A stretch of 64,000 nt of DNA from a virus (IMGVR_UViG_3300010883_000015:16696-80695); one strand, 5' to 3'; positions 7,990 to 57,323 are shown, numbered from the stretch's first letter. The notes: a model not told the origin generated them from the sequence alone. A program made the numbers and translations.

Positions 7990-10900
7990 ATGGCAGAACG
8001 CACATGGAAAGAACAAGTAATTGTTCAGATTATGGGAAAAGATGCAGGTTATAACAAACTTGTATCTGATGCAACCAGAAGAACAGATCGATTTGGTAAG
8101 TCTCTTGAAATACTCAGTACACGGGTAACCAATCAATTTACAAAAGGATTGGCGAACATGGCAACTGCCGTGTCTGCTTTTTCTAAAGATATGGTTGTGG
8201 CTGGAGCAAATTTTGAGCAAGCGATAACTACACTTAGCGCAATAAAACCGTCAACAAGTAGTTCGGCCTTAGCAGGCCTTTCTGATGAGGCAAGAAAGTT
8301 AGGTGCCACGACTGCATATACTGCTACTGAGGCAGCAGAGGGTATGCAACAATTGGCTCGTGCGGGATTTGAAGCAAATCAAGTTCTAGCAATGACTGGC
8401 CCTGCATTATATTTCGCAGGAGCGAATGCAATAACAATGGATATGTCAACGAAATTGTTGGCATCCTCTTTAAAGCAGTTTAATCTTGTTGCTTCTGATT
8501 CCAATAATGTTCTGGATGTTTTTACTGTTGCAACACAGAATTCATTGTTTGATGTAGAATCCTTAGCGGTAGCTATGCGATATGGTGGTTCAGTTGGTGC
8601 TTCTCTTGGTAGGTCCCTTGAAGAAACTGTTGCGGTTATGTCGTCATTTAGAGATTTGGGCCTTGAAGGTTCGATGGTGGGTACTCGCTTTAGGCAAGCG
8701 ATGCTTTCATTAATTAATCCTACCGCAGGTGCTAAAAAGATAATAAAAGATTTAGGATTAACCTTAGAAGATGTCAACCCTTCTATTGTTGGCGCAACTG
8801 AGGCAATCAGAAATCTTGGAAAGGCGGGAGCCACAAGCCCAGATGCACTAGCGCCTATTGTTTCTAAAAGGGCAGCAGGTAGTGTTTCAAAACTAGCAAA
8901 AGATTTGGCAGAAGCATTAAGCATTGATGAATTAGAAATGTACTTTTCAAAATTAGGAAAAGATTTATCACTTCAAACTGTTGAAGATATTGCAAACGCA
9001 GAAAAGCAAATAGGGAAATCTCTTCACCAAATAGATCTAATGCAGATGAAGTTTCAGAGATCTGCTGGGATAACTGCGCGAACCTATGAGACAATGATCT
9101 CAACGGTAGAAGGTCAGTATAAGATATTGACCTCTGCTATTCAAGAATTGCAAATTACAACATTTAAAGCCTTTAATACAGATGTTTTCAGGGGAACAAA
9201 AAAAGAAATAGAAGAAATTGGAAAAACATTTAGCGGTACAATACCTGAAATTAATAGTTTTTCTTCTATACTTGAAGATTTAAAGAAAGTTGTTGATGAC
9301 GTAACAACCGTTATTTCTTTTCAGGGTATTGAAACAACATTATTCTTCACTGAAATGACCGATAAGATCAAAGAATTAGTTGATACATTTGGAACCACGG
9401 AAAGTATAACTATTCATTTTATAGAAATGAGTAAAGCAATTGTCTCTGCTTCTCTAAATGTTGCTTTATTTTTAAATAATTTCAGATTTTTAATTGATCT
9501 AGCACAGACATTTGTTGCTATAAAACTTGGGTTTATGTTTAAGAATATTGCCGAGTATATGCTAAGAAGTGCTGGAGCGATGACCGTGACTGCTGGTGCC
9601 ATGGTAAACCTTACAGGGGTGCAGGGTGCACTAAATGTAGCTTCTAAGGGTGATATAGCAATAAAGAATATACAGCGAACCCTAATGATCCAAATGCTGG
9701 AATTGATGATCGTTCAGACCCAAGCATTTGTTGCGTTAACAGCAGGGCAAAGTAGGGCAACAGTAGCAACTAAAACAAATACCGCAGCATTAACTACGCA
9801 AATCATGGCAATGAAGGCTAGTGTTGGTCTTTTAAAAAAGCAGATAATAAGCGCAGGAGCAGCAAGTGCCACTATACCGGTCGCGACTGTATCGATGGGG
9901 CTTCTAGGTAGGGCGACACTGAAAGCAGCCGGGTTCTTTCGTGCGCTTGCGGGTGCTTTATCAGGCCCAATAGGACTTCTTTTTATATTTGCACCCTTAT
10001 TAATGGATATATTTTCAGGCTGGAGCGACATTGCAGATGAAGTAGAGGCTACCACCTCAAAAGTTAATTCATTACGCCTATCACAAGAGGCATATAATAA
10101 ATCATTAGCTACCTCTGCTGGCGGGGATAAAGTTGATCAACAAGATGGGATAAATGCATTAAAGCAACAATTAAGAGATAGAGAAGAATATACCTCAGTT
10201 ATTAGAAATGAACTAAATTTAGTAAAAGATCTTACTGATAAAAAACGACAAGAACTTCTATTAGAGGGAAAATTATTTAAAGTTCAATATGGTAAGGAAA
10301 ATATTTTATTATCGGCTAATGCTGCTCAGGCATTAAGGAATACTTATTTAGAAAAAGAGCATGGGATTCTGGCTCAACAAGAAAAAATTGCTGAAAGTAT
10401 GACCGCTAATGCAGATGCTTTAAATAAAAAAGTTAAAGATGGAGCATCAGGATTCACATCATTAATATTACACCAAAAAGAACTTAATAAAGAGTCTGGA
10501 TGGTTTGGGAATTCATGGAAATTAAGCCTAACTGATTTAAATGATTTTAATAATATATTAAAAGAAACATCAGCATCCATGGGTTCAGTGCTTGTTGCAG
10601 GAGAAAAGCATAGCAACTTAATGTCGGCTATTGCTAGCAAAGGTTTAAATGTTTATAGTGCTAGTGATTATTCTGAGATAGTAAAATTATCTACTGAAGT
10701 TTATGAAACACTTGAGTCTCAAGCTAAAGCCACATCTAATCAAGCCAATGTAATGGGGAACGCCCTTACTGATGCAATAGATAGAGTTACAAATGCTGGA
10801 CAGAAAAGAATAGAGTCGAATAAACGTATAGGGAAAAGCAACAATGATCTAAATAAAGCAATTGAATCAAGGTTAAAGTTAGAAGAAAAGCTTAGGAAAG

Positions 10901-34738: not shown

Positions 34739-35428
34739 ATGTTCACTATAAAAGAAATTTTCGCGACACTTCAAGGTGAAGGATCAAGATCAGGAACTCC
34801 TGCGATCTTTGTAAGGTTTGCTGGTTGTAACCTATGGTCGGGACAAGATCATCTTCGAGAGAAAGGAAAAGGTCACTGTGCTTTATGGTGTGATACTGAT
34901 TTTTTTCGTGGAGATAAATATGAAGGTTCTGAATTATTAAACCGCCTCAATAGATTAACCTCTAAGTGGCAAGATAAGATGGTTGTATTTACAGGGGGAG
35001 AGCCTTGCTTACAATTAAAGAAGCCCGAAGCCGTAGGATTAATTGAAAGATTGCTAAATACAGGATGGGTGGTTGCAATAGAAACAAATGGAACGATATC
35101 TGCTGAAGAGTGTCAAGTGCTAAATATATTAAATGATCACCCGAATGGTCATATTACGGTTAGTCCGAAACCTCTTATGGATAAAAGTAAACGTCACAGT
35201 ATTGAGCATATTAAATTAAGATTTGGTACAGATTTAAAAATAATCATCCCAACAGTGTTACCTTTAAATGAATTTCAAGAGTTAAATTTTGAACATTTCT
35301 TCTTTCAACCAATGGATCTACAGGACGGGACTTCTGGATTAAGTTCAGTAGAAGAAACCATTGAATTCTGCATAACTTATGGATGGAGGCTATCTTGCCA
35401 AACACACAAATTTCTAAACCTACAATAG
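34739..35428 (+). CDS. queE: 7-carboxy-7-deazaguanine synthase (QueE), 229 aa
   Basis: The N-terminus IKEIFATLQGEGSRSGTPA and the cysteines of GCNLW and HCALWCDTDF (C30, C47, C51), then FTGGEP and AIETNGT, are characteristic of QueE. It is a radical-SAM enzyme that turns 6-carboxy-tetrahydropterin into 7-carboxy-7-deazaguanine using an iron-sulphur cluster. The cysteine spacing here is CX16CX3C, longer than the CX14CX2C of E. coli. It is the first pathway gene of the operon, and its end overlaps folE. Confidence 0.9.
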   Translation: MFTIKEIFATLQGEGSRSGTPAIFVRFAGCNLWSGQDHLREKGKGHCALWCDTDFFRGDKYEGSELLNRLNRLTSKWQDKMVVFTGGEPCLQLKKPEAVGLIERLLNTGWVVAIETNGTISAEECQVLNILNDHPNGHITVSPKPLMDKSKRHSIEHIKLRFGTDLKIIIPTVLPLNEFQELNFEHFFFQPMDLQDGTSGLSSVEETIEFCITYGWRLSCQTHKFLNLQ

Positions 35429-35979
35429 ATGAAGTAGAAAAAGCATTTAAAACTATATTGAAATATGTAGGCGAAGATCCAGAAAGAGAAGGCTTAAAAG
35501 AAACGCCTAAACGAGTAGCTAGATCATTAAAAGAATGGTTTTCAGGATATGACATAGATCCTAAATCTGTATTATCAACAACGTTTGAAGAAGTTGAAAA
35601 TTACAACGAGATTGTAGTTTTAAGAAATATTAGGCTAGAAAGTCATTGTGAGCATCACATGTGTCCTATTATTGGAACGGCAACGGTAGCTTACTTGCCT
35701 AGAAATAAAGTTGTAGGAATTTCAAAATTAGCTAGAGTAGTAGATGCATTCGCGAAGCGTTATCAAATTCAAGAAGTTATGACAAAGCAAATAGCAGACA
35801 CCATACAAGAAGTGTTAAATCCTAAAGGTGTTGCAGTTATAATTAAAGCACAGCATTTCTGTATTGGAACAAGGGGAATTCATAAGCATGAAAGTGATAT
35901 GATTACCTCCTGTATGCTTGGTGTATTTATGGAAGATAGCACAGCCAGACTAGAACTTATGCATTTAATAAAAGATTAA
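35383..35979 (+). CDS. folE: GTP cyclohydrolase I (FolE), 198 aa
   Basis: Motifs ESHCEHHMCPI (about 86-96), VGISKLARVVDAFAKRYQ and KAQHFCIGTRGIHKHESDM match FolE, which converts GTP into dihydroneopterin triphosphate with a zinc held by Cys and His. It is the first committed step to 7-deazaguanine. Two starts are possible: ATG 35383, which overlaps queE by 46 bases, or TTG 35395, which follows GGAGG at ideal spacing. The TTG may be the real start. Confidence 0.9.
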   Translation: MEAILPNTQISKPTIDEVEKAFKTILKYVGEDPEREGLKETPKRVARSLKEWFSGYDIDPKSVLSTTFEEVENYNEIVVLRNIRLESHCEHHMCPIIGTATVAYLPRNKVVGISKLARVVDAFAKRYQIQEVMTKQIADTIQEVLNPKGVAVIIKAQHFCIGTRGIHKHESDMITSCMLGVFMEDSTARLELMHLIKD

Positions 35980-35988
35980 GGATACAGT

Positions 35989-36789
35989 ATGCTTTCAGTA
36001 TTATCAGCAAGTGGTGGAATGGATAGCACCTCTCTTTTGATGAGACTCTTAGGAGAGGGTCATGAAGTCCATGCTATTTCATTTTATTATGGTCAAACCC
36101 ATTCTTTAGAATTGATTAGGCTTAAAGATAATATCACTTATCTTAGTGAAAATGGATACAAAGTAGTTCATAAAGTTATTAATATAAAATCTATCATGTC
36201 CTCCTTTCATAGCGCTCTGACTGGCTTAATTGATATGCCAGAAGGGCATTATGAAGAAGACAACATGAAAGATACTGTTGTTCCGAATAGGAATGCCATT
36301 TTTAGTTCTATCATATATGGTTATGCATTATCAGAAGCAAATAAACGAGGATGTAAAGCACAGGTTGCTCTTGGTGTTCATAGCGGGGATCATGCAATAT
36401 ATCCTGATTGCAGACCTGAATTCTATGACTATTTATTTATGGCTTTTGATTTTGGAAATTGGAATTCTGAAAGCGTTAAATTGTATCTTCCTTATTTAAA
36501 CGGAGATAAAGAAAGTATTCTAGTAGATGCTATCCATTATTGTAAGAAGTTAAGACTTGATTTTGATACCGTATTTGCGAACACAAACACAGGTTATGAT
36601 CCAGATGAAAAAGGAAGATCTAGCGGGAAAACTGGGGCAGATATAGAGCGCATATTAGCCTTTCACGCTATTGGAAGAACGGATCCGATAGAATATGTGG
36701 ACGGATGGGAAAGTGCCCTAAAGCACGCGATATCAACGCAAGAAAGACATGATACAGATAAAGAACAGCATTCAAATTCAGAGTCTTAA
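35989..36789 (+). CDS. queC: QueC-like preQ0 synthase lacking the zinc cysteines, 266 aa
   Basis: The PP-loop SASGGMDST (6-14) and the VPNRNAIFSS region are typical of QueC, which uses ATP and ammonia to convert 7-carboxy-7-deazaguanine into preQ0. Normally a Cys followed by CGxCxxC binds structural zinc. Here the aligned positions read TGY (G202) and SGKTGAD (S212, T215, D218), so all four cysteines are replaced. The R-x-x-F/A part after them is kept. It is either a zinc-free QueC or an enzyme with changed activity. It starts 10 bases after folE. Confidence 0.82.
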   Translation: MLSVLSASGGMDSTSLLMRLLGEGHEVHAISFYYGQTHSLELIRLKDNITYLSENGYKVVHKVINIKSIMSSFHSALTGLIDMPEGHYEEDNMKDTVVPNRNAIFSSIIYGYALSEANKRGCKAQVALGVHSGDHAIYPDCRPEFYDYLFMAFDFGNWNSESVKLYLPYLNGDKESILVDAIHYCKKLRLDFDTVFANTNTGYDPDEKGRSSGKTGADIERILAFHAIGRTDPIEYVDGWESALKHAISTQERHDTDKEQHSNSES

Positions 36790-36794
36790 TATCC

Positions 36795-37133
36795 ATGTCT
36801 TTATTCAAGAATAAACCATGGGGTTATGAGTTATTATTTGCTCATAGCGAATATTATGTTGGTAAGATTCTTTTCATAAAAAAAGGACATAGGCTGTCAC
36901 GTCAATACCATGAACAAAAAGATGAAACTATATTTGTTCTTAATGGAAAGCTTAATTTGGTTTTAAATAAATCAGAAGATCTTATTATTTTAGAACAAGG
37001 AGACTCTTACAGAATAAATCCACTTATAATTCACAGGATGGAGGCCAAAGAAGGAGACGTTAAATTAGTGGAAGTATCTACTCCTGAACTCAATGATATA
37101 GTCAGATTAGAGGATGATTATGGAAGAGTTTGA
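36795..37133 (+). CDS. Cupin, mannose-6-phosphate isomerase-like, 112 aa
   Basis: The sequence KPWGYELL, then GHRLSRQYHEQKDETIFVLNG and INPLIIHR, then STPELNDIVRLEDDYGR, matches the cupin of type II mannose-6-phosphate isomerase and GDP-mannose pyrophosphorylase tails. His and Glu residues of the two cupin motifs are visible. Small stand-alone copies often sit in polysaccharide clusters and act on sugars or stabilise them. It begins the sugar cluster, 5 bases after queC, and overlaps the next gene by 20 bases. Confidence 0.75.
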   Translation: MSLFKNKPWGYELLFAHSEYYVGKILFIKKGHRLSRQYHEQKDETIFVLNGKLNLVLNKSEDLIILEQGDSYRINPLIIHRMEAKEGDVKLVEVSTPELNDIVRLEDDYGRV

Positions 37134-37791
37134 TGATTACATATTTCTAATACCAGCGAGAAAGGGATCGAAAGGGGTTCCATTTAAAAATAGGAAACTT
37201 TTTGACTACACAGCTAAAATAATACCTGATTCAATTAAGCATAAAGTCTACGTCTCAACTGATGATGAGTTTTTTATTGAAAAGTGTAAAGAATTTGGAT
37301 TTAATTATATAGAAAGAGACCCCTTGTTTGCACAAGATGAAACTACAACAAAGGACATGGTTAATAATTTCATTGATAATAATAAAATAGTAAATAAAAC
37401 CATTATTTTATTATATTTAACGTATCCAGAAAGAAAATGGATTGATGTTTTAGGTGCTAAAAAGTTCTATGAGTTAAAAAAATGTCAATCTTTGCTATGT
37501 AAGAAAAAAACTATTGTATCTCCTTATCTAATCCTTTATGATTTAGGAGATGATTTTGGAGAGCAGGTAATTCCACACAACCTTTGTAGGAGACAAGAAT
37601 ACAGAGAATGTTTTGAAATTAGCCACTTCATAAGTATATTTAGTGTCCAGAATTTAAAAGATTTAAACGTGAATTTATATAATTCAAAAACTAAATTTAT
37701 GATTATTAAAAATGCAATAGATATAGATACAACTAATGACTTAAGGGTATTTTATGACAAAAGTAAAAATAATAGCAGAGATCGGGATTAA
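37114..37791 (+). CDS. CMP-nonulosonate synthetase-like cytidylyltransferase (NeuA family), 225 aa
   Basis: The N-terminus IFLIPARKGSKGVPFKNRKLF contains the nucleotide-binding motif of CMP-N-acetylneuraminate synthetases and related cytidylyltransferases. These activate sialic acid-type sugars by joining them to CMP. The C-terminus keeps DIDTTNDLRVF, the usual end of the family. It overlaps the neuB-like gene by 38 bases, the classic neuA/neuB pairing. Sugar identity (sialic, legionaminic or pseudaminic acid) cannot be told. Confidence 0.8.
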   Translation: MIMEEFDDYIFLIPARKGSKGVPFKNRKLFDYTAKIIPDSIKHKVYVSTDDEFFIEKCKEFGFNYIERDPLFAQDETTTKDMVNNFIDNNKIVNKTIILLYLTYPERKWIDVLGAKKFYELKKCQSLLCKKKTIVSPYLILYDLGDDFGEQVIPHNLCRRQEYRECFEISHFISIFSVQNLKDLNVNLYNSKTKFMIIKNAIDIDTTNDLRVFYDKSKNNSRDRD

Positions 37792-38578
37792 CCATAATGG
37801 TGATATTAATATTGCCAAAGAATTGATTGATGCTTCAATACTTGCTGGTTGTGATTTTGCTAAATTTCAAAAAAGAACACCAGATATTTGTGTTCCTGAA
37901 CATCAGAAATCTAAATTAAGGGAGACTCCTTGGGGTGAAATTCCTTATATAGAATATAAGAAAAAGATTGAATTTGAAAAAGAAGAGTATGAAGAATTGT
38001 TCGATTATGTAGAAGATCTACCTATTGAAATATTTGCCTCTGTATGGGATAAGCCTTCTGTTGATTTTATGTCTAGATATACTCCATTTTCAAAAATAGG
38101 ATCAGCCTTAATAACAGATTTGGAATTATGTAAATATGCTAGAAAGAAATCAGAATTTCTTATTATCTCAACAGGCATGAGTACTGAATATGAAATTGAA
38201 GATTGCATAAATGCCTGTAATCCTGACGTTGTAATGCACACGAATTCTGCTTATCCTTCGCCAGTTAATGAATTAAATCTAAATTACATTCATTGGCTAA
38301 AGGAAAAATGGCCTGAGCACGCCATTGGATATAGTGGTCATGAATATGGCTTGGTTACTACTTTTGCAGCAGTTGCAATGGGTTGCACTTGGGTAGAACG
38401 ACATATTACGCTAGAAAGAACTATGTGGGGAAGTGATCAAATGGCATCGATAGAGCCACAAGGATTTACTAAATTAGTAAAAGGGATAAGAGACATAGAA
38501 AAAGCTTGTATTTTACCCCCACAAGCGCGGGTCTTATTTCCTAGTGAAACCTCTAAAAGAGCAAGTTTAAGGAAATAA
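37754..38578 (+). CDS. Nonulosonic acid synthase (NeuB-like), SAF domain absent, 274 aa
   Basis: KIIAEIGINHNGD, the AKFQKRTPD segment, IISTGMSTEYEIEDCI, GYSGHEYGL and WVERHITLERTMWGSDQ are hallmarks of NeuB. It condenses phosphoenolpyruvate with an N-acetylhexosamine to form a nine-carbon acidic sugar. NeuB proteins are usually about 340 residues with a C-terminal SAF domain. This one stops soon after the TIM barrel (MASIEPQGFTKLV) at 274. No NeuC-type epimerase is seen nearby, so the precursor may come from the host. Confidence 0.85.
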   Translation: MTKVKIIAEIGINHNGDINIAKELIDASILAGCDFAKFQKRTPDICVPEHQKSKLRETPWGEIPYIEYKKKIEFEKEEYEELFDYVEDLPIEIFASVWDKPSVDFMSRYTPFSKIGSALITDLELCKYARKKSEFLIISTGMSTEYEIEDCINACNPDVVMHTNSAYPSPVNELNLNYIHWLKEKWPEHAIGYSGHEYGLVTTFAAVAMGCTWVERHITLERTMWGSDQMASIEPQGFTKLVKGIRDIEKACILPPQARVLFPSETSKRASLRK

Positions 38579-38579
38579 G

Positions 38580-39593
38580 ATGAAAGCATTACATTTATAT
38601 GCCTCTAAGGCACAGTTTAATTCTGGTGATTTCTTTCTAGGCCCTGCAACTAAATGGAAATTTGAAAAAATAATTGATTCAAAAGTAGATTGGGAAACGC
38701 TAGACATTAGACAATCTTTCTCAAAAGGAACTATCAATTATATAAATTCGTTTGATTATTTAATTGTTGGTGGGGGTGGATTGATTCTTCCTGATAGCAA
38801 CCCAAATGAAGTATCTTGCTGGCAATGGGCTATATCCAAAGAATTATTAGAACTCATAACGGCAAAAATATATGTAATGGCTATTGGTTATAATTTGTTT
38901 TTTGAACAAGACATGTCCATGCCTCATCGAGAAATAGAAGATTCTATACCAAGAAGAAAAACAATATTTAAATCTAATATAGAAACCTTAATAAGGAAAA
39001 GTCATTATTTTAGTATGAGGCATAAAGGGGACATAATTCAATTAAGGAAAATTGTTGATACTGAGTATCATTCAAAAATAGAATTTATGTTTTGCCCTGT
39101 TATTGATTATGTTAAAAATAAGTATCTTCTTTCATTCAATTCAGGAGATTATTATACTTTTGAAATTAAAGATGATCGTCCCAACAGAAGATATAAAGGA
39201 ACATCTAAAGAGGAATTTTATAGTAAATTAAAACAATTTATAGAATATTTAATATCTGAAAACAAGCCTGTTGCTATCATGTCTCATGATGGTAGTCGTT
39301 CCTTTTATGATTATTTAAAATCTAAATCTATAAATATTCCACTTTTAGACAATACAACCGCAGATGAGATTAAAATAATTACAAATTATTCAAAAGTTAA
39401 AAAATTATATTGTATGGCAGGTCATAGTCAAATGACAGGTCACGCTCTCGGAATAGATATGTTTAGTTTAATAAGCCACAACAAATTAAAATACTTTCTT
39501 GAAGACATAAAGAGAACAATACCTAAAGATGGTGAATATGTGTCTGAATTAACTTTAAGTAATTTAATTAAAGGATATAATGATGAATCTTGA
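38580..39593 (+). CDS. Polysaccharide pyruvyl transferase-like protein, 337 aa
   Basis: The N-terminal LIVGGGGLILPD and C-terminal AGHSQMTGHALGIDMFSLISH patterns match the polysaccharide pyruvyl transferase family, which adds pyruvate ketals to sugars or transfers related groups. The central CPVIDY stretch is also typical. The start lies 2 bases after neuB and the end overlaps the following gene by 14 bases. The substrate is unknown. Confidence 0.75.
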   Translation: MKALHLYASKAQFNSGDFFLGPATKWKFEKIIDSKVDWETLDIRQSFSKGTINYINSFDYLIVGGGGLILPDSNPNEVSCWQWAISKELLELITAKIYVMAIGYNLFFEQDMSMPHREIEDSIPRRKTIFKSNIETLIRKSHYFSMRHKGDIIQLRKIVDTEYHSKIEFMFCPVIDYVKNKYLLSFNSGDYYTFEIKDDRPNRRYKGTSKEEFYSKLKQFIEYLISENKPVAIMSHDGSRSFYDYLKSKSINIPLLDNTTADEIKIITNYSKVKKLYCMAGHSQMTGHALGIDMFSLISHNKLKYFLEDIKRTIPKDGEYVSELTLSNLIKGYNDES

Positions 39594-40254
39594 ACAAGTT
39601 AAAAAAATATTTTCGAGAAAAAAGAACAGTAGAAACCCTATGATGAAATTATATAATGTAGACGAATTTTATCAGGATATAAATAAATTATTTCATTCGT
39701 ATGAAAGTCTCGATATTTTAGATATTGGAGGGGGGAGAGGTCGCACATTTGATACTGTCAATTCCAATTATCATGTGTTTGATTTAAATCATCATAATAG
39801 TAAAAATTTTATTAAAGGCGATATTACTGATCCTAAATTAAGCGTAAACAAGCAATTTGATATAATTTTTACTAAAGATACTTTTGAGCATATCTTAAAC
39901 CCTTGGGAGGCCACAGATAACATCAAAAAACTTCTTAAAGAAAAAGGGGTCTTTATCTGTATAGCACCCTTTTCTTGGCGATTTCATCCTTCTCCATATG
40001 ATGCTTATAGATATTCTCATCAAGGATTAAAATATATTTTTGAACATAAAAATAATATTAAAGAAATAGAGTCAGGATATATTTATGCCATTGATAAAAC
40101 AAAAGGAACTTGGCCTAATAAATATGACTCTTGGATTGCTCCAGATGGAGTATATAAAGATTGCGTTTCTGCTTTTTATATAGGGATTAAAGATTCAAAT
40201 TATATTTTCAATAAAAATATTATTGTAGCCGATACTTCTCTAAATCATGATTAA
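39580..40254 (+). CDS. Class I SAM-dependent methyltransferase, 224 aa
   Basis: The SAM-binding motif LDIGGGRGRTFD (about 47-58), the acidic HVFDLNHH and FTKDTFEHILNP identify a Rossmann-type methyltransferase similar to those in glycan clusters. The conserved RYSHQGLKYIFEH end fits this group. The gene is very AT-rich compared with queC and dpdA. It probably methylates a sugar or glycan intermediate. It overlaps both neighbours. Confidence 0.8.
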   Translation: MMNLEQVKKIFSRKKNSRNPMMKLYNVDEFYQDINKLFHSYESLDILDIGGGRGRTFDTVNSNYHVFDLNHHNSKNFIKGDITDPKLSVNKQFDIIFTKDTFEHILNPWEATDNIKKLLKEKGVFICIAPFSWRFHPSPYDAYRYSHQGLKYIFEHKNNIKEIESGYIYAIDKTKGTWPNKYDSWIAPDGVYKDCVSAFYIGIKDSNYIFNKNIIVADTSLNHD

Positions 40255-40927
40255 AAAAACAATGAATTGTGTTATTTGTAATGGTTCAAGTTTTTTATAT
40301 CGTGAACATCTTTTATTAAAAGAAGAAATATATAAATGTTCTTCTTGCTTTTATCATTTTGTAAATTGTTCAAATTTTAATGAAAAAGATATATTTGATC
40401 AGCAGAATAATAATTCTGGAAGTTTTGGTGGGAATTTTTCCAGAAATTCTAAGTATTTATCTTTATTGAAAAAACAAACAAATATTAAAAGCATATTAGA
40501 AATTGGAACACCTGATAATTACGGATTTTTAGAAATGGTTTTTAAAGAATTTGGAAAAACCATTGAAATAAATTCTCATGACTTAATAAAGAATAATTTT
40601 CCTTCTTATATTAATTTTTATTCCAATAAAGATGAATTGCTAAGAAAAGAAATTGATCTCTTGTTTTGTATTCATACTTTAGAACATATCCCAACTAATC
40701 ATCTTTTAGAATTCATTTCATTTTGTAAATCTGTATCAAAAAAATACATATTTGAAGTACCTTGCTGTGAAACCCTTACAAGAGTATTAAAAAGTTCCAC
40801 TCAGCCTCATTATAGTTTCTTTTCTGAATTATCATTAAAGGTTCTTTTTGAAGAGGATTTGATTCTAAATAAAACAAATGAAGTTATTAGATTTACTAAT
40901 TTGGAAGAATTAAATATATTAATATAA
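40247..40927 (+). CDS. Zinc-finger SAM methyltransferase, 226 aa
   Basis: The N-terminus has MNCVICNGS and YKCSSCFYHF, a four-cysteine zinc ribbon as in C-methyltransferases of deoxysugar pathways. The core has SILEIGTPDNYGFLEM and LLFCIHTLEHIP. Such proteins often C-methylate NDP-keto sugars or act as glycan methyltransferases. The local base composition is the most AT-rich of the operon: two sampled lines contain 11 G or C in 60. It overlaps the previous gene by 8 bases. Confidence 0.75.
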   Translation: MIKKTMNCVICNGSSFLYREHLLLKEEIYKCSSCFYHFVNCSNFNEKDIFDQQNNNSGSFGGNFSRNSKYLSLLKKQTNIKSILEIGTPDNYGFLEMVFKEFGKTIEINSHDLIKNNFPSYINFYSNKDELLRKEIDLLFCIHTLEHIPTNHLLEFISFCKSVSKKYIFEVPCCETLTRVLKSSTQPHYSFFSELSLKVLFEEDLILNKTNEVIRFTNLEELNILI

Positions 40928-40948
40928 TTATATTAAAATGAAAGAATA

Positions 40949-41059
40949 ATGAAAAAGCTAAATATAGGCCCAGTCTCTTCTACTTCTTATTTTAAAAATC
41001 TTGCAGACTAGGAAGCAAGAGAGCATTATAGAAGTATGTATATAGAGGTTATTAAATGA
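40949..41059 (+). pseudogene. Small ORF interrupted by an in-frame TAG
   Basis: ATG 40949 reads MKKLNIGPVSSTSYFKNLAD, then TAG at 41009-41011, then EAREHYRSMYIEVIK and TGA 41057-41059. The last stop overlaps the start of the next gene as ATGA, the usual coupling arrangement. This suggests the whole 36-codon frame was once, or still is, translated across the amber codon. Readthrough, a recent mutation or a sequencing error are all possible. Confidence 0.4.
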
Positions 41060-41385
41060 TTATTTATGTAGACATAGATGAAACGATCTGCAATTCTCCT
41101 GAAAATAGAGACTATGCAAAAGCAGAACCAATTTACGCACATATTAAGGAGATAAACAGGCTATATCAACAAGGTAATACAATTATATATTGGACAGCAA
41201 GAGGGACTGGCTCTGGTATAGATTGGAGATATATTACCGAAAATCAATTTAAAGAATGGGGCGTTCAATACCATCAATTAAAGTTTGGTAAGCCCATTTA
41301 TGATCTGTTCATAGACGACAAAAATATAAATAGCGAGGTATTTTTTAATGGAGCTTTCGAGTTTAAAAAACAAGCACAAATATGA
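41056..41385 (+). CDS. HAD-family phosphatase, capsule biosynthesis type, 109 aa
   Basis: HAD motifs are visible: DIDETICNSP (motif I), WTARGTGSG (motif II Thr), KFGKP (motif III Lys) and FIDDKNIN (motif IV). Small proteins of this type in sugar clusters hydrolyse sugar or polyol phosphates. The phosphate could be removed from the 9-phosphate nonulosonate if the pathway is sialic acid-like. It overlaps the preceding small ORF by 4 bases and the next gene by 38 bases. Confidence 0.75.
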   Translation: MIIYVDIDETICNSPENRDYAKAEPIYAHIKEINRLYQQGNTIIYWTARGTGSGIDWRYITENQFKEWGVQYHQLKFGKPIYDLFIDDKNINSEVFFNGAFEFKKQAQI

Positions 41386-42046
41386 AGACGTATGGGTTAT
41401 CGGTTCAGGATCTTCTCTTGATTTTATAGATAAATCATTTTTTGAAAACAAAATAACCGTTGGAGTTAATAGGTCTTGTTGTTATTTTGAATGCGATTAT
41501 GTGGTTGCAAAAGATCTTAGAGGATTAGAAGAAATAGAAGAAAACACTTTAAATAAAAATATTCAAAAAATATATTCTTTATTTAATTGTGGGAATACTA
41601 CATCAACAAGAAATGACGAAAATAAAGATAAAGATATTGTTTATTTCCATCACCCACAAAATGGGAACCCTAGGACAGAAATCATTGGAACGACCAATAG
41701 TAATGGAGAAGACTTAATTATTGTTTCTTTATCAACAATAACTAGTGCAATTCATATTGCGGCCTATATGGGCGCTAAGAATATAATTATATGTGGTCAT
41801 GATTGTGGGAAACTAAATAATAATATTTCAATAAAAGGATATAATTCTATTATCCCGCCCGTACAGGGAGCTAATGAATATGTTGAATGGTTAAACCGCA
41901 TAGAAAATCATACTATAAAAGTATGTAAAAAACTTAAAGAAGTATACAATTGCAATATACATTCATTAAATCCATTCATAAATTTTAATTTAGAAGGATT
42001 TAAATTTGAGTCAAATCCAAAAATAAACGAAAGAAGGTTTAGTTAA
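41348..42046 (+). CDS. DUF115-like, possible glycosyltransferase, 232 aa
   Basis: The N-terminus has VWVIGSGSSLDFI and later GVNRSCCYFECDYVVAKD, similar to the DUF115 (MptE-like, motility accessory factor) family and, more distantly, to GT42 sialyltransferases with the same GSG nucleotide-binding start. The central IIVSLSTITSAIHIAAYMGA and IIICGHDCG also fit. In the context of NeuA and NeuB, transfer of a nonulosonate to a protein or glycan acceptor is a fair guess. It is not proven. Confidence 0.6.
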   Translation: MELSSLKNKHKYEDVWVIGSGSSLDFIDKSFFENKITVGVNRSCCYFECDYVVAKDLRGLEEIEENTLNKNIQKIYSLFNCGNTTSTRNDENKDKDIVYFHHPQNGNPRTEIIGTTNSNGEDLIIVSLSTITSAIHIAAYMGAKNIIICGHDCGKLNNNISIKGYNSIIPPVQGANEYVEWLNRIENHTIKVCKKLKEVYNCNIHSLNPFINFNLEGFKFESNPKINERRFS

Positions 42047-42406: not shown

Positions 42407-42865
42407 ATGGGATATCAAAGTACAAAAATATTTTCAGGATATAGCACAGCCTTCAGGCAGTGGAAAGCAACTCATTCTCATTGTAAATTTATGCATGGAT
42501 ATGCATTAAGTTTTAAAGTATGGTTTGAGGGAGACATAGACGAAAGAAATTGGGTAGCAGATTTCGGGTCTTTTAAAAAGAATGGAATTAAAGACAAATT
42601 AAGTAATATATTTGATCACACTACCATCATCGCTAACGATGACCCTCTTTTGGCAGACTTTGAAAACCTGCATAACAAAGGTGCAATTCAGATTATTATA
42701 ATGGAAGATGTGGGGTGTGAAGTATTTGCTAAATGTGTATCAGATATGATAAATACAATAATAAGTAAAGAAACCAATGGAAGGGTGCAAGTCAAAAGAG
42801 TTGAATGTTTTGAAGGCTCTACAAGCAATAGTGCAATTTATGAGGCTAATAATGAGATCAAATAA
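42407..42865 (+). CDS. queD: QueD-like 6-carboxy-tetrahydropterin synthase, 152 aa
   Basis: The segment SHCKFMHGYALSFKVWFEG with the catalytic Cys (C26), then NWVADFGSF, then IFDHTTI and EDVGCEVFAKCVSD, fits the QueD/PTPS family. QueD converts dihydroneopterin triphosphate to 6-carboxy-tetrahydropterin. The classical zinc ligands are changed: the early His of the fold is Phe (TAFRQW) and HGH reads HGY, while extra histidines H23 and H25 precede the Cys. The ribosome site is ATAAGGAGAATTTTA. It is separated from queC by the sugar cluster. Confidence 0.82.
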   Translation: MGYQSTKIFSGYSTAFRQWKATHSHCKFMHGYALSFKVWFEGDIDERNWVADFGSFKKNGIKDKLSNIFDHTTIIANDDPLLADFENLHNKGAIQIIIMEDVGCEVFAKCVSDMINTIISKETNGRVQVKRVECFEGSTSNSAIYEANNEIK

Positions 42866-43139
42866 TACTCAAATTGCGACTATAAGATTGAATTTATTAG
42901 ATCTAAATAAAAGCGCGAATGAGCCTCAATTTAAATCTTTAATAAGCGATGGATGGACTGTTATTTCTTCATTGGCGGTACAAGAAGAAGAACGACCTAC
43001 TTTAATTTTACTGTTGGCTCCCCCTAAAGAAGAAATCAGGGTTAAAGTTGAAAAGGAAATAAAGATAAAACTAATAATCATGATTATTATTCAAATATTA
43101 ATAGCAATTGTTTTAATAAAGGGAGGCCTGTATGCCTAA
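42852..43139 (+). CDS. Hypothetical protein with C-terminal membrane helix, 95 aa
   Basis: The frame extends upstream into queD, but ATG 42852 (MRSNNTQIAT) gives a 14-base overlap and is the preferred start. A final hydrophobic helix (IKLIIMIIIQILIAIVLIKG, residues 72-91) would anchor the short N-terminal domain in the membrane. No family recognised. Its end overlaps the ParB-like gene by 8 bases, so it is part of the modification operon. Confidence 0.6.
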   Translation: MRSNNTQIATIRLNLLDLNKSANEPQFKSLISDGWTVISSLAVQEEERPTLILLLAPPKEEIRVKVEKEIKIKLIIMIIIQILIAIVLIKGGLYA

Positions 43140-43767
43140 GGTAATAGAAGAAATAGAAGTAGAAGAAGGTCAAAAAGTAGAAACAGAAAAAGTAGGGGAA
43201 TGGGTGCACCTAGATCAATTGGTGGAATGGGATCAGAATCCAAGATTTAACGACCAAGCGATAGATCAAATTGCTGATAGTATAAAAAAGTTTGGTTTTT
43301 CTTCTCCTATAATTGCTAGAAAAGCAGATAACAAAATAATTGCAGGACATACAAGATTTAAGGCTGCTCAGTCCTTAGGTATGCAATTTGTTCCTGTCCG
43401 ATTTATGGACTTGTCAGAAACAGAAGCAAAGGCTCTTGCCCTTGCCGATAACAGGCTCGGAGAGATAGCATCTTGGGACGACGGGCTGTTAGGTGACGTG
43501 CTATCTGAATTAAAGAAAGAAGGCGTAGATATGGACATATTGGGCTTTTCTCAACAAGAAGTCGATCAATTGTTAGGAAATTGGACTGATCCTTTTTGGG
43601 ATGAAGATGAACTTAATAGCAGTGAATTAAATGATGACGAAATAGAAGATAATGGTCAATCAATAATCTATATCACCGTAGCTATAAATAGAGCCAAAGA
43701 TACTAGTGATCTCATTACAGAATTGCTAAATAGCAACAACATAGAACATACAATTAAATTAAAATAA
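43132..43767 (+). CDS. ParB-like nuclease-domain protein, 211 aa
   Basis: Residues 25-90 (HLDQLVEWDQNPRFNDQAID, IKKFGFSSPIIARKADN, IIAGHTRFKAA) match the ParB/sulfiredoxin-fold domain, including the GHTR motif. A helical region follows (ALALADNRLGEIASWDD). Stand-alone copies are common in phages beside DNA modification enzymes. It lies just before queF and dpdA, so a role in DNA modification, similar to the partner protein DpdB in bacteria, is worth considering. No ParA was seen, so plasmid partition is unlikely. Confidence 0.75.
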   Translation: MPKVIEEIEVEEGQKVETEKVGEWVHLDQLVEWDQNPRFNDQAIDQIADSIKKFGFSSPIIARKADNKIIAGHTRFKAAQSLGMQFVPVRFMDLSETEAKALALADNRLGEIASWDDGLLGDVLSELKKEGVDMDILGFSQQEVDQLLGNWTDPFWDEDELNSSELNDDEIEDNGQSIIYITVAINRAKDTSDLITELLNSNNIEHTIKLK

Positions 43768-43780
43768 AAGGATTTACAAC

Positions 43781-44257
43781 ATGACTGATGATGAAAAATA
43801 TGAGTCTCATGGGAATTCTTCGCAATTAAAATCCCTTGGGAATGCCAAAACTAAATACCCAACAACGCCAGACGAGGCAGAGTTAGAGAAAATACCGTGG
43901 AAAGGAGAAGGCTTTAGTTACGTTACTTGGGAATGCCCTGAATATACTTGTGCTTGTCCCAAAACAGGCCAACCTGACTTTGCAACAGTCTATATACAAT
44001 ACATACCAGAAGCATATATTGTAGAAAGTAAATCATTGAAAATATATTTATTCTCTTTCCGTAATTATGGTCATTTCCATGAAGTTGGGATTGAAAGAAT
44101 TGCTAAAGATATATTTGATTTTATACAACCTAAATTCTTAAGAGTAGTTGGAGACTTCAATAAGAGAGGAGGGATATCAATTGTCCCTATTTCAGAATTT
44201 GGAGATCTTTCTTTATCTAGCTCTATACCTATTCCTAAAATAACATATGGCTCTTAA
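43781..44257 (+). CDS. queF: NADPH-dependent preQ0 reductase (QueF), 158 aa
   Basis: The motif ESKSLKIYLFSFRNYGHFHE (82-101) is the QueF signature, and YTCACPKTGQPDFATVYIQY holds the catalytic cysteine (C59) and aspartate (D66). QueF reduces the nitrile of preQ0 to the aminomethyl of preQ1, using NADPH. The length matches the short (unimodular) QueF form. Its presence with DpdA predicts preQ1, not preQ0, as the inserted base. The stop TAA overlaps the next ATG. Confidence 0.9.
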   Translation: MTDDEKYESHGNSSQLKSLGNAKTKYPTTPDEAELEKIPWKGEGFSYVTWECPEYTCACPKTGQPDFATVYIQYIPEAYIVESKSLKIYLFSFRNYGHFHEVGIERIAKDIFDFIQPKFLRVVGDFNKRGGISIVPISEFGDLSLSSSIPIPKITYGS

Positions 44258-45147
44258 TGCCTATTAAATTCCATAATTTAGTTTCTTTTGCATTATTTGG
44301 AGATCGAATTAATGAAGGCTTGCATCCAGAATGGAATACTATGTTGGATAGCGGGGGATTTACAAACTTTGTAAGAGGTAAAGATATTGTTACCTTGAAA
44401 GATTATTGTATGTATCTTAAAACCGAAAAGGTAAGGTTTTGGGAATATATGGCTCTCGACCGAATTGGGGATAAAAAGATCAGCGGGGAGTATCTTAATA
44501 AAATGATAAGCGTCGGTCTTGCTCCTGTTCCAATTTATCAGAGAGGAGAAGGAAGTGCCAAAGAATTAACTAAGATGATAGAAGCAAATAGATTAATTGC
44601 TATTGGTGGAATCTCTCAAAACCTTTCAGCCAAAGCCGAGCAAGAGTACCTTCGTAACGTAATGAGGGTGGTAAGAAAAGTTCCGACTGCAAAGGTTCAT
44701 CTTCTTGGGGTAGGTGTTAGAGAAGCCAAGCTATATTGCCCTTATAGTTCAGATAGTAGCACTTGGGCTAGTCATTTTAGATTTGGGATTATTCGTCTTT
44801 GGCATCAAGGTAAATTGTTAGACTTCCAAAAACATAAGACTGCTCAACACGCCAAGAGATATGTTAGGCCGAATCCAAATTACACACGATGTTTAGCTAA
44901 ATATAGCCTGACTTGGAATGATCTATATGATAATGCCGATTGGTCTAAGCCTGAAAGTAAATTAAGCATAGCAGCAACTAGGTCTTGGATAAGGCAATCT
45001 AGGTCTTTGTATCGAAAAGATAGCAGATATTTATTAGCAAGTTTACCAATAAATGTTCAAGCGATTAAAGAGGCTTGGAATTATGAAAGAATTTCATGGG
45101 GTTGGCCTAAGTCTAAATTCATAAGTATACCATCTGAAAAGAAATAA
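44257..45147 (+). CDS. dpdA: DNA 7-deazaguanine transglycosylase (DpdA-like), 296 aa
   Basis: The catalytic region NTMLDSGGFTNF (Asp31) and ALDRIGD (Asp68) are the phage DpdA form of the tRNA-guanine transglycosylase fold, with LIAIGGISQN and HLLGVGV as further TIM-barrel strands. It exchanges guanine in DNA for a 7-deazaguanine base. It ends the operon, 1 base overlapping queF. The zinc cysteines of tRNA-type enzymes were not located by eye, which is common in DpdA. Confidence 0.88.
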   Translation: MPIKFHNLVSFALFGDRINEGLHPEWNTMLDSGGFTNFVRGKDIVTLKDYCMYLKTEKVRFWEYMALDRIGDKKISGEYLNKMISVGLAPVPIYQRGEGSAKELTKMIEANRLIAIGGISQNLSAKAEQEYLRNVMRVVRKVPTAKVHLLGVGVREAKLYCPYSSDSSTWASHFRFGIIRLWHQGKLLDFQKHKTAQHAKRYVRPNPNYTRCLAKYSLTWNDLYDNADWSKPESKLSIAATRSWIRQSRSLYRKDSRYLLASLPINVQAIKEAWNYERISWGWPKSKFISIPSEKK

Positions 45148-53057: not shown

Positions 53058-53127
53058 TGGAAAGAAACACATAATGAAAATCTCATTCATTATTTTACTT
53101 AAATCATTCATAAAAAAAGGAAATGTT

Positions 53128-54345
53128 ATGAATACCAACTCAACCCTCATTAAGAACTCTAAACTATTAGATGGTGTCAGGACTGAACTTAATTCTAAAT
53201 TCTTAGAAAGAGAAGATGAAATCAATTGCATACTTACTGCTCTTGTTAGTAATACAAATGTTCAATTTATAGGAGCGCCAGGAACCGGAAAGTCTGCTTT
53301 GGCAAATTCTGTTTCACACTTGTTAAATTGCTCTTTCTTTAAAGTGAATTTGGATCAAGATTTAGATCCTGATTTTGTTATAGGCCATATCTCATTAAAA
53401 GAAATGAGAGATAATGACCGAATAATCCGTAACACATCAGGCAAGATTGCAGATGGACAACTTGTCTTCTTGGATGAGTGTAATAAATGTAATAGCGCCA
53501 TGAAAAATGCATTGCTTTTACCTCTTAACGAACGTCAGGTTGATATAGGCGATGGTATACCAAGAGATACAGAGATCAGAAGCGTTATTGGTGCCAGTAA
53601 TGAGTATCCCGGTTGTACTTCAATCGACGACGATACCGATCATCTTGTTCACGATCCAAACTGGGATAGATGGGCGCTAAGAATGGAGGTTAGATATATC
53701 GAAGCCGATCACAATTTCAAGGATCTTTTGATTAATAGATTTACAGTTGGCAAGGTTGATAAATCTTTAGCTATTGACCTCTCTATTATAGATGAAATGA
53801 GGATGGCTCTTTATAGTGTGAATTTAGATAATGTTATGGATCTAATATGTAAATTTAGAACCTTACTGCAAAGACAAGCAATAAATCTATCAGACCGTAG
53901 GTGGATGACAATTTGTAAATTGATTTCAGCACAAACAGTTATGCGCGGATCTCTTACTGCTAAGGGTGAAGACCTTATGATACTTGAACATGCTCTGTGG
54001 AGAACACCAGAAGAAAAGTCTATTACAGACATGGTTATACAAGACAATATTAAGTCACAATATATTGAATCAAAGAAGATTCTCGGTATCGTTAAGGCGA
54101 CAATTAAATCTACACTTGAAGCAATAAAAGAAGATGACATTAATTGCAAAGACACTAAAAGCAAAAGTCGTGCAGTTGCAATGCTTACTTCTTCAAAGGA
54201 TTTACTGGTAGATCAAGTTCGCTCTGCTGGATCTAAGAATTGGACTTGCCCAAAGGCACTGAAAGTTAAAGAAGAAATAGGTGGGCTTATTCAATCTTTA
54301 GGAATTGAAGCACACAAAAGAATGAACTTAAACATAAATCTATAA
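53128..54345 (+). CDS. MoxR/CobS-like AAA ATPase, 405 aa
   Basis: The frame is open from an upstream ATG at 53074, but ATG 53128 (MNTNSTLIKN), after AAAAAGGAAATGTT, is the better start. Walker A FIGAPGTGKSALA lies near residue 49, Walker B LVFLDECNKCNSAMK near 111, and SVIGASNEYPG follows, all as in MoxR/CobS ATPases. These usually work with a VWA protein to load metal or remodel complexes. The partner here is the CobT-like gene at 55815. Other phages carry such pairs, but the substrate is unknown. Confidence 0.85.
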   Translation: MNTNSTLIKNSKLLDGVRTELNSKFLEREDEINCILTALVSNTNVQFIGAPGTGKSALANSVSHLLNCSFFKVNLDQDLDPDFVIGHISLKEMRDNDRIIRNTSGKIADGQLVFLDECNKCNSAMKNALLLPLNERQVDIGDGIPRDTEIRSVIGASNEYPGCTSIDDDTDHLVHDPNWDRWALRMEVRYIEADHNFKDLLINRFTVGKVDKSLAIDLSIIDEMRMALYSVNLDNVMDLICKFRTLLQRQAINLSDRRWMTICKLISAQTVMRGSLTAKGEDLMILEHALWRTPEEKSITDMVIQDNIKSQYIESKKILGIVKATIKSTLEAIKEDDINCKDTKSKSRAVAMLTSSKDLLVDQVRSAGSKNWTCPKALKVKEEIGGLIQSLGIEAHKRMNLNINL

Positions 54346-55814: not shown

Positions 55815-57323
55815 ATGGACTTTAAACCAAAAGCAAAAAAGAACCTAAGCAGAAGAGTAAGTGACTTTTCTCGTTTTCTACATGATCAAAGACATTTCTA
55901 CGGAACCAATGCATTCAGGCAAACAAGAAAACTAGAAAATAGATTAGCTTATGAATTTAAAGTAAAGTGCAACCTTGAAATTACAAATGAAGAATTAAAC
56001 TCTGATATGGAATTGTTTGCTACTGAAATGTTTTCAAGAATGTATGAAGATTCAGATATTTCTGAGACTGTTGATAAACAATGGGCAGAAGACATACATG
56101 AAATCTTAGATGCTCAGTCAGAGTTTCAGTCAATAAAAAGAATGGCTAGAAGGGATCCAGATCTGGCTTCTTTAGCTACTGCTTACACATTCAATCACTT
56201 TAAAGAAGAAATATGCTCAGTTATTACATACAGAAAACAAGAAGAGCAGGAAAACAAAAAGAAAGAACAAGAAAGAGAACAAGGACAAGAAAAGTCTAAA
56301 GGAAAAGGTCAGGATCAAGAACAGAAAGAAAAAGGAGAAAATAGTCAAGACAAGGCTGTCTCTAAGCTACCTGAATCATTGAAGAACGAGTTCCTCTCAA
56401 AAGCAATGGATTTTTCTGAAAGTGTTGAAGAAATAGGGGAACTAAAAGAAGCAATGTCAGGAATCGGGTCGTTGGGATCAACAAAGGAATTAAGCACTGA
56501 AAGAACAGAGCTAATTAATTCATTGACAACAAATGGATCACTTAAAAACATCTTAAAGATGGTTGGAAGATTGAAAAAGTTAATGAATTCTTTTCCCGCT
56601 CTTGTTAAGTCTAAAAGAAAAGAAAAGATTTATGAGATAGAGCAGGACAGGGCACCTAAAGAACTCAGCAGGGAGCGAATGTTAGCTGCTAATGATGACA
56701 CTTTTGACCAGTATTGTTTTAGATTTGCTACTCGTAAACAATGGAAGAAAAAGAAAGGGAACGGTCAAGACGAATCGGGACTAGGTCCAATACTTATGTG
56801 TATCGATACATCTGGTTCTATGCATGGGGAAAGAATTGAACTTGCAGTAGCTTTAGCTATTGCAACCGCAAGTATTGCAAGCGATACAAAAAGAGAATTT
56901 AAGGCGGTAACATTCAACAAAAAGTTGGGACATGAATTCTACATACCAAAGAAAGCTAGAAATTCAGATGTTCTAACTGTTTTAAAGATGATTTCAAAGC
57001 TAGGTGCAAGTGGAGGAACATCATTTAATCCACCTGTTAAATGGGCGGTAGATCAAGCTTTGAAACACCCAAAATCAGACATATTGTTCTTGACTGACGG
57101 AACAGGGAGTTGTTCTACGAAAATGTCTAGTATGTTAGAATTTGCCAAGAAAAAGAGAGGGCTAAGACTCTTTACTGTATTGATTGGGGAAGATGATTAC
57201 CCGCATGCAGGTGGTATCGAAGAGATATCTGATGGAGTTATCAACGTCAAAGAACTTACAGAAAACAAGTCAATTAATGAATTGGCAAGACTGATGAAAT
57301 CAATCAAAACAAGAAAACTATAA
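55815..57323 (+). CDS. CobT-like protein with VWA domain, 502 aa
   Basis: The C-terminal 175 residues are a von Willebrand A domain with the MIDAS motif MCIDTSGSMHG near 327, KFNKKLG-type strand and DILFLTDGTG near 422. Residues 141-182 are a highly charged linker rich in Gln, Glu and Lys. The N-terminal part is helical. Bacterial CobT proteins with MIDAS motifs pair with AAA ATPases (CobS) in cobalt or magnesium chelation. Together with the ATPase at 53128 this forms a phage-borne pair. Metal insertion is unproven. It is expressed from leader P3. Confidence 0.82.
   Translation: MDFKPKAKKNLSRRVSDFSRFLHDQRHFYGTNAFRQTRKLENRLAYEFKVKCNLEITNEELNSDMELFATEMFSRMYEDSDISETVDKQWAEDIHEILDAQSEFQSIKRMARRDPDLASLATAYTFNHFKEEICSVITYRKQEEQENKKKEQEREQGQEKSKGKGQDQEQKEKGENSQDKAVSKLPESLKNEFLSKAMDFSESVEEIGELKEAMSGIGSLGSTKELSTERTELINSLTTNGSLKNILKMVGRLKKLMNSFPALVKSKRKEKIYEIEQDRAPKELSRERMLAANDDTFDQYCFRFATRKQWKKKKGNGQDESGLGPILMCIDTSGSMHGERIELAVALAIATASIASDTKREFKAVTFNKKLGHEFYIPKKARNSDVLTVLKMISKLGASGGTSFNPPVKWAVDQALKHPKSDILFLTDGTGSCSTKMSSMLEFAKKKRGLRLFTVLIGEDDYPHAGGIEEISDGVINVKELTENKSINELARLMKSIKTRKL

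Follow-up and report, generated by a model that had tools for sequence, protein, structure and literature searches.

A gene cassette that appears to direct the synthesis and transfer of a sialic-acid-like sugar is lodged within a DNA base-modification operon of a bacterial virus. The window analysed here, a stretch of 64,000 nucleotides, comprises bases 16696-80695 of the 80.7 kb IMG/VR virus contig IMGVR_UViG_3300010883_000015, and the cassette occupies its positions 36795-42046, between the genes queC and queD. With slightly more confidence than doubt, we consider the cassette to be a phage glycosylation module for a nonulosonic acid (NulO), seated inside an operon for the deazaguanine base dPreQ1 and functionally independent of it, with a virion protein or glycan as the most probable acceptor.

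The original prediction of a NulO-type cluster between queC and queD, with mostly overlapping genes on one strand, is borne out in its frames, order and coordinates; its families are as named, except that there are two methyltransferases where one had been listed. All eight genes lie on the + strand. A cupin of the mannose-6-phosphate isomerase C-terminal type (36795-37133; PF01050, E 5.4e-9) starts 5 bases past the end of queC and is followed by a neuA-like CMP-nonulosonate cytidylyltransferase (37114-37791; PF02348, CTP_transf_3, E 6.9e-8), a neuB-like nonulosonate synthase (37754-38578; PF03102, E 9.8e-62) and a polysaccharide pyruvyltransferase-like gene of GT-B fold (38580-39593; PF04230, E 1.1e-4, below cut-off). 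Next come a class I methyltransferase (39580-40254; PF13489, E 1.4e-8), a second methyltransferase-like gene with a weak match (40247-40927; PF13489, E 0.0022) and, by eye, an N-terminal Cys-rich stretch, a short HAD phosphatase of the EcbF/BcbF capsule type (41056-41385; phrog_1238, E 3.3e-27) and a DUF115/MptE-like gene for the predicted nonulosonate transferase (41348-42046; phrog_4603 alpha-2,3-sialyltransferase, E 6.7e-6), 360 bases ahead of queD. Neighbouring genes overlap by 8-38 bases, apart from a 1-base gap between neuB and the pyruvyltransferase-like gene and a 128-base gap ahead of the HAD gene.

The active sites of the three putative synthesis enzymes are conserved. NeuB residues E9, K37, Q39, K114, S117, H196, E215 and H217, kept in at least 95% of 43 relatives, align with E25, K53, Q55, K129, S132, H215, E234 and H236 of meningococcal NeuB, whose catalytic and metal-binding roles are well established, and the sequence is that expected of a TIM barrel with residues for binding phosphoenolpyruvate (PEP), metal and sugar. 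This NeuB ends at 274 aa without the C-terminal SAF (antifreeze-like) domain of many bacterial NeuB and PseI proteins; its alignments with the NeuB_NnaB (329 aa) and PseI (327 aa) models run no further than 256-258, with scores under the equivalog cut-offs. A chain of comparable length (290 aa) has been solved under the name sialic acid synthetase (6ncs), and the SAF domain is thus not universal. NeuA carries the motif PARxxSKGxPxKN, with P14, A15, R16, S19, K20, G21, P23, K25 and N26 conserved in 20 sequences; it scores above the PF02348 cut-off and under that of PseF (1.3e-8), and its PDB matches are CMP-Neu5Ac synthetases. In the HAD protein, the residues that a phosphatase should have (D6, D8, T47, K79 and D88) are conserved in 25 sequences; its match to TIGR01689 (E 2.7e-6) is under cut-off, and it resembles EcbF/BcbF capsule phosphatases. 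The cupin is possibly a sugar isomerase or epimerase.

The transferase has to be recognised largely by its fold. The DUF115 protein is a single domain of 232 aa with a DUF115/MptE-like match of E 8.9e-6, scoring 26.0 bits against a PF01973 gathering threshold of 34.6, which a homologue in the viral locus L029 clears (35.2 bits). Since a sequence comparison of the protein with the PDB gave no meaningful match, only the fold comparison is informative: the AlphaFold model (predicted local distance difference test, pLDDT, 88) matches Maf (5mu5, Z 13.1), MptE (12.9) and CstII (1ro7, 11.6), as well as CstI and, at Z about 9, mammalian sialyltransferases. The model thus has a sialyltransferase-type Rossmann fold (Z 9-13), and the full three-domain architecture of Maf is not present. 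Given the match to Maf and CstII, the protein is probably a NulO transferase. MptE, which shares the fold, is a pterin kinase, and fold alone is therefore no proof of sugar transfer; beside NeuA and NeuB, a sialyltransferase is nevertheless far more likely than a pterin kinase. The pyruvyltransferase-like protein likewise gives a weak match (PF04230, 22.6 bits against a cut-off of 25.3), and the top structural match of its model (pLDDT 81) is yeast Pvg1p (5ax7, Z 16.2), although GT-B folds are common. The predicted folds lend support to both of these sub-cut-off assignments.

Taken together, these proteins suggest a pathway in which NeuB would form a NulO from PEP and an amino sugar, or the phosphate of that sugar, provided by the host, the HAD phosphatase would take off a phosphate and NeuA would convert the product to CMP-NulO. 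The DUF115 protein, with its Maf/CstII sialyltransferase fold, would then transfer the NulO, while the cupin, the methyltransferases and the pyruvyltransferase-like protein would trim or cap the sugar or the acceptor glycan. The most probable acceptor would be a virion protein or a glycan that it bears, assembled in the cytoplasm, perhaps with the help of the glycosyltransferase encoded at 2237-5098, and the outcome would be an acidic coat on the particle. What the analysis shows is the gene identities, the conserved active sites, the predicted fold, the independence from deazaguanine genes and the place of DUF115 homologues within virion operons of related phages; the activities, the nature of the sugar, the sequence of steps and the acceptor are inferred.

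The cassette is not confined to this phage. It had been called an unusual cargo for a phage, which holds for sequenced phage records, where NeuB is matched in 2 of 50,697, and fails for environmental viral contigs, in which scans recovered 26 loci with NeuB and 43 with DUF115. The window NeuB groups with 30 other viral sequences in a single clade on a long stem (100/100 support), with all 8 cellular rows found outside it. Its identity is 76% to the best viral sequence and 55% to the best cellular one found, the cellular rows coming from one pattern-based scan with 7 loci that could have missed a closer relative. Contamination by a cellular cluster was considered and ruled out, as NeuB sits in this virus-only clade and the cassette follows queC so closely. 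Within 8 kb of 30 viral NeuB genes lie neuA-type genes in 28, HAD genes in 24 and DUF115 genes in 14, the last count being biased upwards because the loci had been collected by searching with NeuB and DUF115; at other viral NeuB loci there is a GT29 sialyltransferase or a DUF115-like gene of a second type, and some include a UDP-GlcNAc 2-epimerase. The pairwise distances of NeuB and DUF115 are correlated (r 0.89; 0/2000 permutations), phage relatedness being uncontrolled in this comparison. A terminase match is found in 12 of the 27 records searched, and T4-like replication genes were seen by eye in the loci L031, L033 and L005. Overall, the sequences suggest that environmental phages maintain a sialic-acid-type synthase lineage of their own.

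What the sugar would be attached to is the next question. The suggestion that the cluster makes a NulO and may decorate the virion or the host surface is supported by the enzyme families, the conserved catalytic residues, the sialyltransferase-type fold, the glycosyltransferases adjoining homologous viral modules and the DUF115 homologues inside virion operons. The window itself encodes, in its virion gene block, a GT2 glycosyltransferase with TPR (2237-5098, + strand; PF00535, E 1.1e-5), which is 24-34% identical over 805-960 aligned columns to proteins of L050, L053, L059 and L088. In the related siphovirus groups L050, L053 and L059, the order is capsid, adaptor, a glycan cassette (methyltransferase, GT4, DUF115 and radical SAM genes in varying order), GT2/TPR and tail genes, with the cassettes, GT2/TPR included, at L059:7751-14057, L053:5922-11935 and L050:4366-10820; their GT2/TPR protein, gp10-like protein and tail tube have homologues in the window at 2237, 5064 and 6412. 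The GT2 gene is kept at the same place in L088-L090, relatives from the window's own lineage, as well as in the more distant L050, L053 and L059, and in L044 a DUF115 domain is fused to a GT4-like protein next to a portal-like gene (by eye). The DUF115 homologues in virion operons, together with the shared GT2/TPR protein, favour glycosylation of the virion. The radical SAM/SPASM enzyme of the L050, L053 and L059 cassettes suggests a peptide or sugar modification of their own. As a separate observation, the GT4-like gene at L044:5614-7953, adjoining the GT4-DUF115 fusion, is seemingly split by a Hint/intein-like insert (by eye).

Several observations weigh against this reading. The window cassette lies among replication and modification (early-type) genes, outside the virion block. 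The contigs that hold DUF115 homologues in virion operons have no NeuB, and the donor sugar there may be a different one; in L088, a relative from the window's lineage, the GT2 gene is retained, with no NeuB on its partial contig. Larger clusters such as that of L005 resemble surface polysaccharide clusters. Finally, the cassette contains no sugar-precursor genes, and the host therefore probably supplies the precursor.

The main rival to a decorated virion shares the same NulO chemistry and places the sugar on the lipopolysaccharide (LPS) or capsule of the infected cell, where a NulO cap would block superinfection. We regard this as possible, though distinctly the less probable of the two. The placement with early-type genes would suit it, and other viral NeuB loci hold RmlC-like, epimerase, DegT, WbqC and several glycosyltransferase genes in an O-antigen-like arrangement. 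Moreover, there is published precedent in the LPS clusters of P-SSM2-type cyanophages, for which a superinfection block has been proposed (PMC7824862; PMC3037559). On the other hand, profile searches found no flippase or polymerase family among the cassette proteins, and hydropathy gave no clear membrane segment in any of them; the single cytosolic transferase shares its fold with Maf, whose acceptor is protein, and homologues of the transferase sit in virion operons. Further removed, and unlikely, is a cassette whose product is not a glycoconjugate but a small molecule, free or linked to lipid, for instance a signal or a secondary metabolite. Some cyanophage sugar and amino-acid clusters have been read in this way (PMC7824862), and two methyltransferases with a pyruvyltransferase-like enzyme would fit; CMP activation and an enzyme of sialyltransferase fold, however, indicate transfer.

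The position of the cassette raises the further idea that preQ1 in phage DNA bears the sugar on its aminomethyl group as a new hypermodification. The host operon reads queE-folE-queC-[cassette]-queD-small open reading frame (ORF)-parB-queF-dpdA, all on the + strand. To the left of the cassette lie queE (radical SAM; 34739-35428; Radical_SAM E 9.1e-5, 47% identical to the homologue at the same place in the viral contig L028), folE for GTP cyclohydrolase I (35383-35979; PF01227, E 4.2e-73) and, flanking the cassette, queC for preQ0 synthase (35989-36789; PF06508, E 1.1e-33, 62% to L028). To its right lie a queD-like gene (42407-42865; PF01242, PTPS/QueD, E 2.1e-13) with no match in L028 or L095, the small ORF (42777-43139; 44% over 59 aa, E 2e-13, to the L028 ORF directly after queC) and a gene for a ParB-N domain protein (43132-43767; PF02195, E 1.2e-11). 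These are followed by queF for a QueF-II preQ1 synthase (43781-44257; E 1.5e-29) and a dpdA-like transglycosylase gene (44257-45147; phrog_887, E 7.2e-20, 58% to L028). Profile searches thus find the whole set of a dPreQ1 operon, namely a preQ0 pathway, QueF and DpdA, in the window, with matches that lie, like those of NeuB and NeuA, far outside what chance would give, and since QueF scores above the cut-off of the preQ1 synthase model (TIGR03139, 128.9 bits against 86.9), dPreQ1 is the base predicted for the phage DNA. This base has been measured in phages Dp-1 and HVTV-1, which like the window have a preQ0 pathway and QueF, with DpdA in Dp-1 (PMC6884629); in every other phage tested here, by contrast, the deazaguanine genes come without NulO genes. 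A megablast of the 30-50 kb region against phage records gave zero matches, and a promoter and terminator scan gave no more sites than shuffled sequence.

Several lines indicate that the cassette is functionally independent of base modification. In the 26 further contigs with a cassette, some 2.26 Mb of sequence, neither QueC above cut-off nor DpdA occurs, a count that leaves out sub-cut-off QueC-like fragments in one of them (E 4.9e-4). Conversely, NeuB is found in none of 37 viral QueC contigs and cassette genes in none of 58 viral QueC loci, while among annotated phage records 244 match QueC and neither of the 2 that match NeuB is among them. As the contigs are fragments, single absences are weak and the two-way pattern is the stronger. 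Further, the syntenic relative L028 carries sak, ssb, ruvC, primase, queE, folE, queC, the small ORF, parB, queF and dpdA, with neither cassette nor queD at the corresponding place (8547-8934), as seen by protein comparison, which was used instead of an uninformative empty-site DNA alignment. The queD gene may derive from the host or be a fellow traveller with the cassette; scans with DpdA, QueF and primase yielded only L028 or nothing, so these data fit either a gain of cassette and queD in the window phage or their loss in L028. The thymidylate-synthase family, a proxy for hydroxymethylated bases, is matched in 4 of 27 records with no clear link. The pairing of operon and cassette is so far unique, each part being found alone elsewhere, and because the two gene sets occur apart in related viruses, the sugar is most likely on the virus particle or host surface and not on DNA.

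For the sugar on DNA there remain the ordered, overlapping cassette genes within a complete preQ1/DpdA operon, the joint presence or absence of queD and cassette relative to L028, and the existence of DNA-glycosylating phage glycosyltransferases, as cited in PMC12619734. This alternative, put forward as a bold one in the original prediction, thus leans on gene position, and the distribution of both gene sets and the intact L028 operon without a cassette speak against it. Moreover, sialyltransferases act on hydroxyl acceptors. We hold a NulO, or a sugar derived from it, on the dPreQ1 aminomethyl to be highly improbable, and its strictest form, a cassette that sialylates DNA to give a negatively charged, sugar-hypermodified base, a shade more so. 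Similarly improbable is that the genes are recently acquired functionless cargo or a decaying partial pathway, as the lower G+C of several of them (0.23-0.28), the missing precursor genes and the absence from L028 might suggest, when all frames are open, operon spacing and catalytic residues are kept and the strongly supported virus-only NeuB clade implies that the genes have long been kept in viruses.

Two side observations concern other genes. Several DNA methyltransferase-like genes (N6/N4 type; MT-A70-like by eye) accompany the deazaguanine pathway in one phage (27284-28267; L083:8114-9358, L083:5755-6483 and L083:4609-5139), and a MoxR-like AAA ATPase and a von Willebrand A-type protein were recognised by eye at 53074-54345 and 55815-57323.

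Operon position alone would have been a misleading guide to function here, and a sugar on DNA, if true, would be categorically new. The viral synthase lineage appears to come together with a small transferase of sialyltransferase fold, and the finding supplies a place in the genome, a partner for the transfer and acceptors that can be tested. Should the sugar be carried by the virion, the particle would have an acidic coat whose chemistry resembles that of sialylated bacteria and flagella, and adsorption, particle stability and recognition could be affected.

The cassette can be placed within a known class, the phage-borne surface glycan genes, and it shares parts with several described systems. 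LPS and capsule clusters of P-SSM2-like cyanophages and jumbo phages likewise contain cupin, HAD, methyltransferase and glycosyltransferase genes (PMC7824862; PMC3037559); neither sialic nor neuraminic acid is named in those accounts, whereas the window core is NeuA-NeuB-HAD-DUF115. Capsid and tail-tube glycosylation in mycobacteriophages (Freeman et al. 2023, cited in PMC12619734) offers virions decorated by phage-encoded glycosyltransferases, although the citing paper mentions no NulO pathway and the acceptor in the window phage is a predicted one. CstI and CstII (GT42) and the GT29 sialyltransferases have their fold in common with the DUF115 protein, which also matches a PHROG sialyltransferase family, and a GT29 gene is present at one of the other viral NeuB loci; the identity to these enzymes is 10-18%. 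A further such system is the Maf-mediated NulO glycosylation of flagellin in Campylobacter, Clostridium and Magnetospirillum (PF01973), which likewise draws on CMP-NulO from NeuB/NeuA-type enzymes (PMC11339370) and whose transferase shares its central fold with the phage protein, the latter being the central domain only, devoid of the Maf N- and C-terminal domains and of a flagellin partner.

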